In this document: piece after piece, positions 3,558-62,228 of the stretch | Numbering within the stretch: the first letter of the stretch is position 1 | Layout: every line of letters begins with the position of its first letter | Source of the DNA: Yersinia vastinensis | GTDB lineage: Bacteria; Pseudomonadota; Gammaproteobacteria; Enterobacterales; Enterobacteriaceae | Length of the DNA: 64,000 nt | Direction: 5' to 3' | Assembly: GCF_902726565.1 (NCBI RefSeq) | Contig: NZ_CACVAF010000008.1 | Coordinates: 186,001 to 250,000 of the forward strand | Position numbers and translations under genes: made by a program | Notes under the pieces: model-generated | The model's input: the letters and a program-made list of their open reading frames with translations, nothing else | The model's database searches: none | What the model was told of the DNA's origin: nothing

Positions 3558-4243
3558 GAAATGTCGTCACAGCCATCCAGAACCGTGATGGTCAATCATT
3601 GCAGCAGATGTACGCCGCTGATAAGCCAAAGCAGCAGGTGCCAGAGCAGGCCGCGCAGATATTCAACGAGCTATTTCGCCAGTTGAAGGCTGCATTTCCA
3701 GCGCTGATGACCAGCATCAAAGACCAAAGCGACCTGAACGAGCTACGTCGCCAGTGGGTTTTGGCATTCATCGAAAACGGGATTACCAGTATCGACCAAG
3801 TTAACGCTGGAATGAAGATCGCCCGCCAGCAGGCAACGCCGTTCCTCCCGTCGCCGGGCCAATTCATCGCATGGTGTAAGCAGGGTGCCACCCGCGCCGC
3901 TGGACTGCCCGATGCGGATGAGCTTTATGACATGGTGATGGACTATGCCAAGCGTCGTGACATGTTCAGCAGTGCCGAAGCATTCCCATGGCCCAGCAAT
4001 CCGGCCTACTGGATGGTCACAAAGCTTTATTCACAACAGCGAGTGCAGGGGTTATCTGAGCAGGACTTACGGAAACGGTGCGGCAAAGAGCTGGCTGACA
4101 TGTCGAAGCGCATTGAATCTGGTGAGCCAATCCCCGCGCCGGTGGTGCAAATCCCTAAGCTTCACATCCCGGCCAGCAACGAGAAAGCACTGGATCACAT
4201 TGCCGAACTACGCGCCAAGCTGAACATGACGAGGAAATCATGA
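3554..4243 (+). CDS. P: DnaB helicase loader, lambda P-like
   Basis: A 229-residue protein aligning throughout with lambda P, including ELRRQWVLAFIENGITSIDQVNAGM and FLPSPGQFIAWC. P takes host DnaB from its normal loader and delivers it to the O-origin complex. The ATG at 3554 overlaps the O stop (ATGA), and its own stop overlaps the next gene, so O, P and the first nin-region gene are translationally linked. Confidence 0.95.
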   Translation: MRNVVTAIQNRDGQSLQQMYAADKPKQQVPEQAAQIFNELFRQLKAAFPALMTSIKDQSDLNELRRQWVLAFIENGITSIDQVNAGMKIARQQATPFLPSPGQFIAWCKQGATRAAGLPDADELYDMVMDYAKRRDMFSSAEAFPWPSNPAYWMVTKLYSQQRVQGLSEQDLRKRCGKELADMSKRIESGEPIPAPVVQIPKLHIPASNEKALDHIAELRAKLNMTRKS

Positions 4244-10672: not shown

Positions 10673-10826
10673 CTGCATCCCTCCAGAGATACCCGAGATA
10701 TTAACTTGGGGTAACAGCTTATTACTGAATGACACCCTGTTAACGGTGATAGAGCAGTGCAACGCAGATAAGGCGAGCATTCGGCAAATTGAATCAGCCA
10801 GACAGAATTCCCCCGACAAGGAATAG
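10560..10826 (+). CDS. Rz1: Outer-membrane spanin lipoprotein, Rz1-like
   Basis: An 88-residue lipoprotein in a different frame, starting inside Rz at ATG 10560 after GGCGGGG. The signal peptide is MSVLFALFLLPLLTSC, with the lipobox L-T-S-C and lipidated C16. A proline-rich stretch (KYVQVPQVPIPASLL) follows, as in other o-spanins. The start at 10413 proposed by the longest frame would lack the signal peptide at its N-terminus and is rejected. Confidence 0.88.
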   Translation: MSVLFALFLLPLLTSCGNTPVKYVQVPQVPIPASLLSDCIPPEIPEILTWGNSLLLNDTLLTVIEQCNADKASIRQIESARQNSPDKE

Positions 10827-10836
10827 ATAGCTTCTT

Positions 10837-10863
10837 AGCCTCGCAATAGCGGGGCTTTTTTTA
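10837..10863 (+). terminator. Intrinsic terminator after lysis genes
   Basis: AGCCTCGC and GCGGGGCT pair around AATA, followed by seven T residues. Late transcription reaches the packaging genes only with Q antitermination. Confidence 0.8.
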
Positions 10864-10903
10864 TCCCTAACGCTGTCGCAAGCGTATCCAACCAAGAGCC
10901 TAC

Positions 10904-10981
10904 AGAAAGCAAACCTGAGAACAGCCGTATAGGTGCGGACCTCTCTTGGGCGGCTTTTCTGTGCGAACAGGCTTGCTTTCT
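10904..10981 (+). ncRNA. C4-antisense-RNA-like leader element, copy 1
   Basis: A 78-nt element bounded by a 14-bp terminal stem (AGAAAGCAAACCTG with CAGGCTTGCTTTCT, one mismatch). Inside is a GCCG...CGGC helix and a small hairpin AGGT-GCGG-ACCT (10931-10942). The Shine-Dalgarno of the next gene is AGGT (10984-10987), seven bases before the HNH gene's ATG, and is complementary to the ACCT arm. A second copy of different sequence but the same fold is at 11773-11853. The general plan matches the C4 RNA upstream of ant in phages P1/P7; the family assignment is from memory. Confidence 0.7.
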
Positions 10982-10994
10982 ATAGGTGTCCGAA

Positions 10995-11591
10995 ATGAAA
11001 AAAGAGTTCACCCCAGAGTATTTACTCTCCCTTACAGGAAGAGTTCCGCTAATTGAGCGCCTTAATAGGAAAGTTATTATTAACGAACGTGGATGCCACG
11101 AATACAGCAGCAATCTTGATAGGTGTGGATATGGAAGATTTAAGGTTGGAAAACATCAGCTAGGTGCGCATAAGGTTATGTATTTATTGACGGTTGGTAA
11201 TTATGACCAAATAAATAAAGAGCTTATGCATATTTGTGACAACCCCGCCTGCATTAATCCTGAGCATTTAAAGCCAGGGACACATAAAGAGAATATCCAA
11301 GATTGCATAATGAAAGGAAGGCATACCAGTCAAAGATATCCCTCCCATATTCGTGTGAGACCTCCAAAAAGGAAAGCAAAGCCAAGGAAGACTATAAAAT
11401 CATCAACAGCAGTTATTTCATTTTTCTCCTCTCGTAAGTTAGCTATTTCAAATGGCGATAAAACTTATATTGGGTCTAACTGCGCCAAGCATCACCTTGG
11501 AATTAGGAAAACAAATAACGGTGCATGCATTTATTGCATGGACGAGTATCGGTTAAGTAAGAAAAAATCTCGCGACAATAAATCGAGGTGA
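10995..11591 (+). CDS. HNH homing-endonuclease-like protein
   Basis: A 198-residue protein from ATG 10995; the in-frame GTG at 10986 overlaps the Shine-Dalgarno and is less likely. Residues 30-100 (GCHEYSSNLDRCGYGRFKVG ... AHKVMYLL ... HICDNPACINPEHLKPGTHKENIQD) form an HNH_3-type nuclease core with H, N and H positions and a zinc-like CDNPxC. The C-terminal half is basic with CxxC and may bind DNA. Such genes are usually freestanding selfish elements; this one lies between lysis and packaging genes. Confidence 0.85.
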   Translation: MKKEFTPEYLLSLTGRVPLIERLNRKVIINERGCHEYSSNLDRCGYGRFKVGKHQLGAHKVMYLLTVGNYDQINKELMHICDNPACINPEHLKPGTHKENIQDCIMKGRHTSQRYPSHIRVRPPKRKAKPRKTIKSSTAVISFFSSRKLAISNGDKTYIGSNCAKHHLGIRKTNNGACIYCMDEYRLSKKKSRDNKSR

Positions 11592-11691
11592 TCCCGCCTG
11601 TTTCACTGGGCCTATCTTGGCGGCTCGGAAAGACGAGAAGTGGTGTAGCAACGCCGAGAGGAGTAGCAAAGCCGCGAACAAAGAACATGAA

Positions 11692-11719
11692 GGCTCAGTT
11701 TAACGACTGGGCCTTTTTT
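11692..11719 (+). terminator. Intrinsic terminator, identical to the one after PR'
   Basis: GGCTCAGT-TTAACG-ACTGGGCC followed by seven T residues repeats the hairpin at 8651-8677 base for base, including the AA in front. It follows the HNH gene by 100 bases. Confidence 0.8.
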
Positions 11720-11772
11720 TGTACCTGCAATATCTCCGCGCATTCACCGCGCATTTCAAACGAGAGTCTTTC

Positions 11773-11853
11773 AGAAAGCTGAGCCTGAGAATTGCCGCTA
11801 TAAGGTAGCGACCTTCTCTCGGGCGGCATTCTGGTGAACAGGCTCATCTTTCT
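11773..11853 (+). ncRNA. C4-antisense-RNA-like leader element, copy 2
   Basis: An 81-nt element with a 15-bp terminal stem (AGAAAGCTGAGCCTG with CAGGCTCATCTTTCT, one mismatch). Paired positions differ from copy 1 in a compensatory way (CAA/TTG against TGA/TCA). The inner hairpin AAGGT-AGCG-ACCTT (11802-11815) presents ACCTT, which can pair with the AAGGT Shine-Dalgarno (11856-11860) seven bases before the Rha gene's ATG. The element ends 14 bases before that ATG. Confidence 0.72.
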
Positions 11854-11867
11854 AAAAGGTAATCGCT

Positions 11868-12557
11868 ATGAAGCACCTAATTAAAATCGCAAATGGTCAG
11901 CCTGTTGTAAGCAGCAAAGTTGTCGCTGATGAATTTGGTCGTGAGCATAAAAACCTCATGCAAAATCTGCGTTCACTTATTGATAGCGGCCATTTAGGTG
12001 AGCTTGATTTCAAGCCCTCCTCTTATACCGACAGACAGAACAAAAACCAACCATGTTATGAGTTGACAGAGCGCGGGTTTCTGATCGCCATGCCATTCAT
12101 TGGTGGTGATAAAGCAAGAGATGGGCAGGTTCGTCTGGTTGATAGTTTTATTGCTTACCGGGAAAAAGCTAAACGTGAAGCAGCTATTCAGGCCGAGCGT
12201 GATTTAGCTAGGGTTGAATACCGGCCAATGACCAATGCGATCAAGATCAGCAAAGAAGCGGAAGGGAAAGAGGCTGAGCATTATCACTTCAGCAATGAAG
12301 CTAACCTGATAAACCGCATTGTGCTTGGCGCAACTTCTGCGAAGTTCAGGAAAGAGAATGAAATCGGAAAGGCTGAGGCGATTCGTGACTATCTGACTGC
12401 TGAGCAAATCCGGGCCATTACTGAGCTTCAGCGGGCAGATACGGTATTCATCAACATGGGATGGGACTTTGAAAAGCGCAAGTCTGAGCTGACCAGGATG
12501 TTTGAGCGAAACCACAAAACACCGCTCATTGAAGAACAACACCGGTTGGCGGCCTGA
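11868..12557 (+). CDS. Rha-family phage regulator/antirepressor
   Basis: A 229-residue protein. The first 95 residues (VVSSKVVADEFGREHKNLMQNLRSL ... CYELTERGFLIAMPFIGGDKARDGQVRLVDSFIAYREK) are the Rha domain, a winged-helix-type DNA-binding module. The C-terminal half (about 120-215) is helical and charged, with a QRADTVFINMGWDFEKRKSELTRMF stretch. Rha proteins interfere with lytic development or repressor activity in other phages. The C4-like RNA in its leader suggests translational control, as for P1 ant. Confidence 0.82.
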   Translation: MKHLIKIANGQPVVSSKVVADEFGREHKNLMQNLRSLIDSGHLGELDFKPSSYTDRQNKNQPCYELTERGFLIAMPFIGGDKARDGQVRLVDSFIAYREKAKREAAIQAERDLARVEYRPMTNAIKISKEAEGKEAEHYHFSNEANLINRIVLGATSAKFRKENEIGKAEAIRDYLTAEQIRAITELQRADTVFINMGWDFEKRKSELTRMFERNHKTPLIEEQHRLAA

Positions 12558-60700: not shown

Positions 60701-61713
60701 TAGCGGGGATGCAGCGCAGAAAGTTTGATTGAAATCCCAGGCCCTTCATAGATACCCCGACCATTTGAGGCTTTGCCGATGGCATGGATAGCCTGCTGAT
60801 AGGAGAGCAGATAGGCTTGCGCATCCGCTTCTGTTAGTGCCGCTTCACCCAACATATCGTAAGAGTAGCGGAACCCTTTATCTTCCAGTTTACGGGCATT
60901 AGCCAATGCTTCTGCGATGGTTTCACCGGTCACGAATTGCTCGCCCATCAAGCGCATCGCCATATCTACGCCTTTGCGGATCAGCGGTTCGCCCCCTTTA
61001 CCGATAATGCGATTTAAAGCGCTAGAGAGTTTGGCTTCATTGTGGGTAGAGACCAAATGGCCGGTAAATAGCAGGCCCCAAGTGGCGGCATTCACAAACA
61101 TTGATGGGCTGCGGCCCAAATGAGAGTGCCAATTACCATTGCTAATTTTATCGCGGATCAGTGCGTCACGAGTGGGTTTATCCGGAATACGCAGCAGCGC
61201 TTCGGCCAGACACATCAGTGCCACACCCTCTTGTGACGACAGTGAAAACTCTTGCAGCAAGCCTTGCACTATCCCGGCACGACCATTGGCACTTTTTTGA
61301 TTACGCAGTTTTTCGGCAATGGAATAAGCCAGCTTGTGTGTCGCTTGTGCTTGTTCTGCGGGTAAACGCGCCTGCTCCAATAACATAGGAATGGCTTCAG
61401 TCTCTGGACGACGATAAGCCGCAGTGATAGCCGCACGGGCAACAGATTGTGGCAGCACTTGTTCGGCAAAATCCAGGAATGGCTGGTGAGTACTTTCTGT
61501 GACTTGCGCCATCATGTCGTCCACTTCCTGAGAGGAAGACGCATGCGTTGTTGTCAGCTCCGGCAGTTCACTGTTACTTTCCAGCCGCTCCAAATAGTTA
61601 AAAATGGCCTGCTTAATTAACCAATGTGGTGTGCGGTCAATATTCTGTGCTGCGGCTTTAATACGGTCACGTGTCGCTTCATCGAGTTTCACGCCCATTG
61701 TGGTGCTAGCCAT
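57742..61713 (-). CDS. putA: Trifunctional proline utilisation protein PutA
   Basis: A 1323-residue flavoprotein. The N-terminal ribbon-helix-helix (about 1-48, TTMGVKLDEATRDRIKAAAQ, RTPHWLIKQAIFNYLE) makes it an autorepressor. The proline dehydrogenase barrel (about 260-560) binds FAD. The P5C dehydrogenase domain (about 640-1115) has the catalytic cysteine near 915 (DSAGQRCSALRIL) and the glutamate in IAETGGLNAM. The C-terminal domain ends NASLMTIG. It oxidises proline to glutamate at the membrane. Confidence 0.97.
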   Translation of the reverse strand: MASTTMGVKLDEATRDRIKAAAQNIDRTPHWLIKQAIFNYLERLESNSELPELTTTHASSSQEVDDMMAQVTESTHQPFLDFAEQVLPQSVARAAITAAYRRPETEAIPMLLEQARLPAEQAQATHKLAYSIAEKLRNQKSANGRAGIVQGLLQEFSLSSQEGVALMCLAEALLRIPDKPTRDALIRDKISNGNWHSHLGRSPSMFVNAATWGLLFTGHLVSTHNEAKLSSALNRIIGKGGEPLIRKGVDMAMRLMGEQFVTGETIAEALANARKLEDKGFRYSYDMLGEAALTEADAQAYLLSYQQAIHAIGKASNGRGIYEGPGISIKLSALHPRYSRAQYERVMEELYPRLLSLTLQARQYDIGINIDAEEADRLEISLDLLEKLCFEPKLAGWNGIGFVIQAYQKRCPFTIDAVIDMAQRSRRRLMIRLVKGAYWDSEIKRAQMDGLEGYPVYTRKVYTDVSYLACARKLLAVPNLIYPQFATHNAHTLSAIYHLAGQNYYPGQYEFQCLHGMGEPLYEQVVGKVAEGKLNRPCRIYAPVGTHETLLAYLVRRLLENGANTSFVNRIADATLPLDELVADPVSAVEAIAASEGQLGLPHPRIPLPRDLYGTERANSSGLDLANEHRLASLSSALLTSASQVWRAEPIIDAELDDGADLPVINPTEPTDIVGYVREATKEEVSRALDAAANAGAIWFATPPAERAAILIRAAELMENQMQSLMGILVREAGKTFSNAIAEVREAVDFLHYYAGMVRDNFANDSHRPLGPVVCISPWNFPLAIFTGQVAAALAAGNSVLAKPAEQTPLVAAQAVRILLEAGIPQGVLQLLPGQGDSVGATLVNDERVRGVMFTGSTEVASILQRSIAGRLDPQGRPTPLIAETGGLNAMIVDSSALTEQVVTDVVASAFDSAGQRCSALRILCIQDDVAEHTLQMLRGAMAECRMGNPERLSTDIGPVIDADAKAGIERHIQAMRAKGRKVYQAARGNNQDEKEWARGTFIKPTLIELDSFDELQKEIFGPVLHVVRFQRQNLSALVDQINASGYGLTLGIHTRIDETIAHITEKAKVGNLYVNRNMVGAVVGVQPFGGEGLSGTGPKAGGPLYLYRLLCSRPEDAVINTLSHQHNETVQNVSGREMLQTAHHALIKWAGEQQNNVLTELAQRYGELAQGGTVWLLPGPTGERNTYALLPRERVLCLADNETDALTQLAAVLAVGCHVLWLEDALQRDLLKKLPAAVQSCITLTQDWQTANISFDAVIYHGDADQLRILCEQIAQIDGPIVSVQGFARGETNILLERLLIEHSLSVNTAAAGGNASLMTIG

Positions 61714-62228
61714 GCGGTCTATCTCCTTTAAGAAGGGGAGTTATGATTTTAATTCCGACAATATCAGGGATGTTGCAACTTTGTGCAACCTTGTTAAATG
61801 AAGGGCGTGTTTGAACTGTGAATTCAGTCTTGTTTTTAACAATTATTCATAAGTGATATTTGCTTGAATATTACGCATACACGTAGGAGTTGCTAATAAT
61901 CTTAGGGGTTGTAAGGAGTTTGCCTAAGGTGTAACTCATTTTGTTATGCCGGGTATCACTGTCGACAGAGGTTAATGTGATGCAGGGTGAATTTTTTGTA
62001 AAAATTTTGTTTAAATTGTTGTGAGTGGAGAAAAGAGTCCACTAGGATAGCAACCGCAAATGACGGTTTGCTCGCAAATAGTTGTACTGGTAGTTTATTA
62101 ACGCTTTCGCGTTCATCTCCGGTGCAATTTTACATCAATCGGGTATAAAGCATGACGCCGCGTTAGGCGAGAAGAACTAAAAATAGCGGGATCAATTAAA
62201 ACGATAATACGCACTATGGAGACGTTGC
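61714..62228. promoter_or_regulatory. putA-putP divergent control region
   Basis: A 515-bp gap between divergent genes. PutA operators usually contain GTTGCA. An inverted pair GTTGCA (61772-61777) and TGCAAC (61784-61789) lies 59 bases upstream of putA, and GTTGCA at 62224-62229 overlaps the putP start codon. These should let PutA repress both genes when proline is absent. Promoters were not assigned with confidence. No other gene is seen. Confidence 0.75.

Follow-up and report, generated by a model that had tools for sequence, protein, structure and literature searches.

A conserved leader RNA present twice in a Yersinia vastinensis prophage-like region, a candidate translational switch for phage regulator and endonuclease genes

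Two structured leaders in a prophage-like region of Yersinia vastinensis, one preceding a gene for an HNH endonuclease and the other a gene for a Rha-family regulator, raise the question of which RNA family they belong to and how such an RNA could control the gene behind it. The first-pass annotation of the window (that is, the whole stretch of 64,000 nucleotides that was analysed) had taken both for C4-like RNAs and had described, at each site, a terminal stem, an inner GCCG/CGGC helix and an AGGT-N4-ACCT hairpin, with an AGGT Shine-Dalgarno (SD) sequence seven bases before the following ATG. The sequence bears out all of these elements and their positions in both copies, and Pfam assigns the downstream genes to HNH_3 and Phage_pRha, as expected from that description. 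A Q-type gene and a lysozyme gene lie upstream in the same region. Each copy contains additional parts that had not been described, namely, a 5′ hairpin (P0), the upstream strands of two helices (D and E) and a terminator-like site. The features are as follows (R1 and R2 are covariance models, A7 an alignment, all introduced below).

10837..10856, + strand: terminator-like stem-loop upstream of copy 1, with a T run after it (terminator scan)
10869..10998, + strand: leader RNA copy 1, whole element (115.5 bits with R1, 111.7 bits with R2)
10870..10885, + strand: 5′ hairpin P0 of copy 1, ACGC..GCGT (sequence; P0 covaries in A7)
10892..10898, + strand: helix D of copy 1, 5′ strand CCAAGAG (loop complementarity)
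10899..10902, + strand: helix E of copy 1, 5′ strand CCTA, partner of the SD (covariation)
10904..10981, + strand: stem of copy 1 noted in the first-pass annotation, with A1, A2, bulge, A3, B and C (folding, covariation)
10943..10949, + strand: helix D of copy 1, 3′ strand CTCTTGG in the apical loop (loop complementarity)
10983..10987, + strand: SD of copy 1, TAGGT, which is the 3′ strand of helix E (sequence)
10995..11591, + strand: HNH endonuclease gene (HNH_3, 198 aa), after copy 1 (Pfam)
11689..11716, + strand: terminator-like stem-loop upstream of copy 2 (terminator scan)
11737..11871, + strand: leader RNA copy 2, whole element (113 bits with R1, 106 bits with R2)
11738..11752, + strand: 5′ hairpin P0 of copy 2, GCGC..GCGC (sequence; covariation in A7)
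11761..11766, + strand: helix D of copy 2, 5′ strand CGAGAG (loop complementarity)
11767..11771, + strand: helix E of copy 2, 5′ strand TCTTT (covariation)
11773..11853, + strand: stem of copy 2 noted in the first-pass annotation (folding, covariation)
11816..11821, + strand: helix D of copy 2, 3′ strand CTCTCG in the apical loop (loop complementarity)
11855..11860, + strand: SD of copy 2, AAAGGT, which is the 3′ strand of helix E (sequence)
11868..12557, + strand: Rha-family regulator gene (Phage_pRha, 229 aa), after copy 2 (Pfam)

Distribution and genomic setting

Relatives of the two leaders were collected with the model R1, built from 21 sequences (alignment A3) that include both window copies, and with the model R2, built from 38 diverse rows. 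Apart from the two copies, the sole rows returned by R1 in the window at E up to 10 are their weak opposite-strand shadows (22.4 and 24.7 bits), and a core pattern derived from the window copies and their relatives occurs twice in the window compared with 0.00 times in shuffles. By blastn, the leader of copy 2 has matches in 70 phage records as well as in 915 of 5426 E. coli genomes. The pattern scan of viral contigs produced at least 120 stretches; six of its loci were judged spurious by eye and dropped, the first alignment set also left out a broken copy (L064:3786-3917) and a duplicate (L001), and 15 opposite-strand shadows were removed before counting. Another stretch, L056:1224-1311, is an end-cut copy. 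Under strict filters, R1 detected the element in 23 of 394 order genomes, a count that includes own genome, and among 369 genomes of the class, own genome alone was positive with either model. Nine of the 23 are small genomes from a second host family (44-69 bits). Within the host family, R2 recovered the element from 94 of the 295 genomes sampled, covering 60/154 genera with up to 6 elements per genome. Of the 31 stretches from named genomes, one is titled as coming from outside the order, from a Cellvibrionaceae metagenome bin, and the rest look like Enterobacterales. The match on that contig (L194) scores 139.5 bits and may reflect binning contamination. In titles and abstract openings of open-licence PMC papers, this leader RNA is unnamed among the matches listed.

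A single sense copy is the common state, found in 39 of 45 hit records, all of which were picked for holding a copy (HK620 is apparently present twice); the other 6 have two, and in one case the second copy is weak (26.6 bits). Two copies per phage are thus a minority state, and the suggestion in the first-pass annotation that copies could act on each other's targets is not supported as a general function. R1 also recovered a diverged copy in ES18 and showed phi80 and Klebsiella phage RothC to have a second copy each. The second phi80 copy (L002:4070-4185) is diverged, lacks hairpin C, and precedes PHI80_66 near the cos end. Arsenophonus nasoniae carries tandem copies about 65 bases apart (L196:3632-3768 and 3834-3979), the second before a Bro-N gene. 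In the record of Actinobacillus phage pPE4 (L007), the weak second match of 26.6 bits lies before a TerB gene, and the main copy hardly differs from the leader of phi80/HK620, which is odd for an Actinobacillus phage; the host label or the assembly may be wrong.

Of 12 annotated phage loci, 11 have the main copy downstream of the lysis genes; in the exception (L010), it is placed among genes resembling tail genes. The best phage match to copy 2 together with rha, Hafnia phage yong1 (96.6% over 819/821 bases), contains one leader copy and has rha between the lysis genes and terminase; the window ORFs at the corresponding place have no Pfam match. Downstream ORFs of 205 of 220 elements (the remaining 15 have no downstream ORF of at least 60 aa) form 80 protein clusters, with Pfam matches (E 0.001) to KilA-N in 35, Phage_pRha in 17, ORF11CD3 in 12, HNH_3 in 8, P63C in 7, AP2 in 5, MUG113 and T5orf172 in 4 each, Bro-N in 3, ANT in 2, and AntA, P22_AR_N, TerB and tape measure in 1 each; there are also two weak tail-tip matches. 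At most 71 of the 80 clusters, provided that no first domains overlap, are part of the Bro network, a gene network named in section 7 of PMC10111431, or encode HNH/GIY-YIG proteins. The tape-measure case, from a small-genome relative, departs from the usual gene class: in both L150:1501-1631 (-) and L162:1501-1631 (+), the gene behind the leader is one for a tail tape measure, with TMP_3 in L150 and the same protein cluster in L162.

Fold and covariation

Both copies are members of one conserved structured-RNA family without an Rfam match. The element is about 130 nt long, 5′ hairpin included, and is ordered, from 5′ to 3′, as the P0 hairpin, the D strand, the E strand, stem A1-A2, an asymmetric bulge on the 3′ side (GTGCGAA in copy 1), A3, B, an optional hairpin C, the D partner in the apical loop, the 3′ side of the stem, the SD, which is the E partner, and the start codon. 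Helix D is near universal. Each window copy folds more stably than its shuffled sequence, with -30.2 kcal/mol for copy 1 (z -2.74; 2/200 shuffles equally good) and -36.8 kcal/mol for copy 2 (z -4.33; 0/200).

Covariation was assessed in two alignments of different kinds. A3, a MAFFT alignment of the 21 sequences not fitted to the structure, has 93.6% of cells paired, compared with 39-52% when partners are slid, and 33 double-change cells versus 13.9 ± 3.0 in shuffles (0/500). In this alignment, the structure including D outperforms the slid partners on every measure and the shuffles on three of the five; the number of pairs with both-sided change is not clearly raised (11 versus 8.2 shuffled, 27/500 as high), and further pair types show no excess (25 versus 26.7, 455/500). 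A7, with 38 diverse rows, is fitted to the model, and such alignments lean towards the structure; in it, 95.6% of cells are paired, both-sided change occurs in 32 of 34 nested pairs, double-change cells number 220 versus 55.4 ± 6.4 in shuffles (0/500), and all five measures beat 500/500 shuffles. Covariation supports the fold, and the compensatory changes described in the first-pass annotation are borne out. RNAalifold draws the same inner stem on alignment A2, with a small covariation term (-0.71 kcal/mol) and both sides changed in 5/21 pairs. Across 103 distinct elements, G-U cells exceed A-C cells (111 versus 14), as would fit an RNA transcribed in the direction of the gene, although the aligner itself favours G-U.

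Relation to C4, P4 CI and IsrK

The proposed identity with C4 RNA is refuted, given that the Rfam C4 model finds no match and that the topology differs. The model (RF01695) gave no match in the window at its gathering score of 45 bits, none at E up to 10 in positions 10800-11950, and none in own genome, with 14 control genomes silent as well; as positive controls, P1 scored 68.8 bits and P4 74.9 bits. Conversely, neither R1 nor R2 matched the P1 and P4 stretches, and R1 found nothing in the whole P1 and P4 records. The isrK model (RF01394, gathering score 50 bits) was likewise without a match in the window, the local stretch, eight diverged member loci and own genome, its controls being silent and its positive control, P4, scoring 60.8 bits. 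A search of Rfam 15 returned nothing above gathering scores for the eight diverged member loci and, for the window, only PutA_thermometer, elsewhere. This is the PutA 5′ UTR thermometer (RF02780), at 61684-61755 (-) with 77.8 bits. Membership of the leaders in C4, isrK or another Rfam family was therefore rejected for want of matches above gathering score.

Nevertheless, the leaders resemble these RNAs in several respects. Like the C4/a1b1 pair of P1/P7 (RF01695, RF03163), they are leader RNAs upstream of a phage antirepressor gene with a loop complementary to an upstream stretch of the same transcript, corresponding here to helix D. In the Rfam C4 fold, however, the terminal stem encloses two side-by-side hairpins, whereas the leaders have a single stacked arm, asymmetrically bulged, with one inner hairpin, and the D strand directly abuts the stem in most members; the sequences differ as well, with no cross-detection in either direction between Rfam C4 and R1/R2. 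In the P1 record, c4 further has two annotated promoters, and another target pair, a2/b2, immediately precedes icd. The P4 CI/seqA system likewise combines a structured RNA that has a partner site upstream with a link to a Bro-network gene, but about 145 nt separate the end of its a1b1-type match from the CI match downstream, whereas here the partner strand mostly abuts the stem, and P4 is not matched by R1 or R2. In section 20 of PMC10111431, P4 CI is linked to the Bro network, as are the Rfam profiles for C4 and isrK, and P4 CI is described as controlling transcription termination. IsrK of Gifsy-1 is, according to a passage of PMC4825925, a prophage leader in which alternative structures control translation of an operon that includes an antirepressor-like gene; it differs in that the Rfam isrK model does not detect the leaders, in which the SD belongs directly to the controlled gene and which are not known to give rise to a small RNA. 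Hence, the leader family may work like C4/CI or IsrK, yet it is a member of neither.

Helices D and E and the possible mode of action

Judging from sequence, the leader would most likely be a cis-acting translational repressor. The fuller reading towards which we lean, with some reserve, is that each copy is the 5′ leader of a single family in which helix E would mask the SD and helix D would oppose this masking. Transcription would come mainly from polymerase reading through the upstream terminator, as in Q-dependent late transcription. The RNA would fold into the long stem, its base closed by the pairing of the CCUA/UCUUU strand with the SD in helix E, a structure that the comparative evidence supports; because E pairs with the SD, translation of the next gene would be low by default. 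The apical loop would also pair with the strand directly 5′ of the stem base, forming helix D, for which compensatory change argues. Since D starts at the point where E begins, bending the stem back at its asymmetric bulge so that D forms would put E under strain or open it, thereby releasing the SD. The geometry thus suggests that D would be the ON contact and E the OFF contact.

Helix D joins the apical loop to the strand directly upstream of the stem, and 30 distinct loop types are complementary to their own upstream strand (CCAAGAG/CUCUUGG, CGAGAG/CUCUCG, CCCAGAG/CUCUGGG, CACCGAA/UUCGGUG, CGUCGAA/UUCGACG and others). These loop types were collapsed from 58 combinations among elements with long enough D regions, and 29 of the 30 have a run of at least 6 pairs, G-U included. 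L158 has a D of only 4 bp; in L156, and in L145 as printed, the register of the best run is a different one. The mean Watson-Crick run is 6.27 for cognate and 3.99 for non-cognate combinations of the 30 loop types, and 0 of 100,000 permutations reach the observed sum, a figure that is not a probability because loop types share ancestry. In A3, helix D is 81.7% paired. Among 27 diverse elements chosen for an energy test, D formed in 0/27 full-length nested ensembles and in 8/27 prefixes; forcing it opened the SD by more than 0.2 in only 11/27 and cost about 14 kcal/mol (median -32.4 versus -46.3). These energies give no sign of a switch, and D as an equilibrium, nested alternative to the stem was rejected. 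Because D crosses the stem, it would have to be a pseudoknot, a transient contact or a contact in trans.

The last of these options underlies an alternative that we regard as unlikely but worth serious attention, namely, that a stem of about 80 nt is cut out as a stable small RNA whose apical loop pairs in trans with the D strand of new leaders, setting phage gene expression or immunity as P4 CI does on seqA and P1 C4 on a1b1. The failure of D to form in the folded stem (0/27) would leave two complementary strands unpaired with each other, D sequences vary between phages while much of the core is kept, and P4 CI belongs, in the section of PMC10111431 cited above, to the same gene network. In addition, cognate D runs exceed cross runs in 4/5 copy pairs, one member of the L077 pair being the exception; four of these pairs are co-resident, and for the fifth, window copy 1 stood in for its identical copy in L036. 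Against this stand the lack of a match to Rfam C4 or isrK and the transcriptional setting. The T run of the upstream terminator ends within 25 nt of the element in 69 of 100 cases, and 8 and 18 bases before it for window copies 1 and 2, respectively, which leaves little room for a promoter; in the window, no promoter-like site occurs between terminator and leader, unlike in P1, where the record lists two for c4.

The same setting might suggest that the element acts on transcription, letting polymerase pass, or stopping it, downstream of the lysis genes. In most cases the element does keep a fixed place shortly behind an intrinsic terminator, which lies within 140 nt upstream in 82/100 elements compared with 15/500 shuffles (the window region has 2 terminator-like sites versus 1.1 in shuffles). 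However, the element follows the terminator and is thus not yet made when the terminator acts, and covariation of the SD helix points to translation, which makes this explanation improbable. IHF binding was rejected as a conserved feature of these loci: the IHF core consensus occurs in 1/102 elements, scanned over 150 nt upstream, compared with 10/510 random stretches from the same loci. A citing passage in PMC4936722 states that IHF regulates rha.

For masking of the SD, the preferred partner is the strand between D and the stem, forming helix E. At two pairs of this helix, A3 shows compensatory change (UA 15/AU 5 and UA 13/CG 5/UG 3), and the probability of the SD being unpaired is 0.02 in copy 1 and 0.17 in copy 2; the SD looks mostly open in L019 (0.64), the second L036 copy (0.57) and the weak L007 copy (0.54). 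The E strand matches the SD over at least 4 nt in 17 and at least 3 nt in 25 of 31 diverse members (2 of 33 were lost for want of an SD), with a cognate mean of 3.42 that is barely above the non-cognate 3.22 (847/20,000 permutations as high). The first-pass annotation had instead assigned the masking to the ACCT arm of the inner hairpin, as an antisense to the SD. This complementarity is real in both window copies, and the arm matches the SD over at least 3 nt in 24/31 members; as a conserved feature it is weak, with at least 4 nt matched in 10/31 (mean 3.0 cognate versus 2.81 non-cognate; 948/20,000 permutations as high). By bare complementarity, then, E and the arm are close, and the preference for E rests on covariation. 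Elsewhere, the hairpin reads AGCT/AGCT or GCC/GGC, and the arm is ACCA in another type; the hairpin is missing in 3/31 members (L155, phi80 copy 2 and L077 copy 2), and in A7 it covaries with itself. Because E covaries, whereas the arm hairpin pairs within itself and is sometimes absent, masking by the arm appears highly improbable.

Unrelated proteins, such as Rha and KilA-N, or Rha and GIY-YIG, are encoded behind identical leaders. There are 1354 leader pairs, many of them redundant, that are at least 93% identical without a protein match at E 1e-3; the converse, one protein behind unlike leaders, amounts to three pairs, one with a cut leader. Such identity before unrelated genes would also be expected of a conserved DNA boundary for accessory-gene swapping by homologous recombination, devoid of RNA function, an explanation to which we give hardly any credence because compensatory change at 32/34 pairs and the excess of G-U over A-C require selection on a folded single strand. 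Gene swapping may still use the leader as a DNA site.

Under the reading of E as the masking helix and D as its opponent, the leader would be a portable module placed before KilA-N, Rha, Bro-N, ANT, GIY-YIG and HNH genes, usually downstream of lysis genes. More tentatively, we suggest that it could represent an undescribed, widespread phage RNA family, a portable translational lock in which the SD-masking helix E competes with a D pseudoknot ahead of the KilA-N/Rha/Bro-N/homing-endonuclease network, possibly also serving in trans as a third type of phage immunity RNA beside C4/CI and IsrK.

Little is known of what KilA-N, Rha, ANT and similar late-region genes do in lambdoid phages or of how they are controlled. 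An RNA control element that is portable and shared by many of these gene types would offer one handle on the class, and phi80 would allow it to be tested. It would extend the catalogue of RNA families by one that Rfam does not match and that about one-sixth of the complete E. coli genomes searched carry (915/5426), and would provide a natural case of one RNA module reused across unrelated genes.
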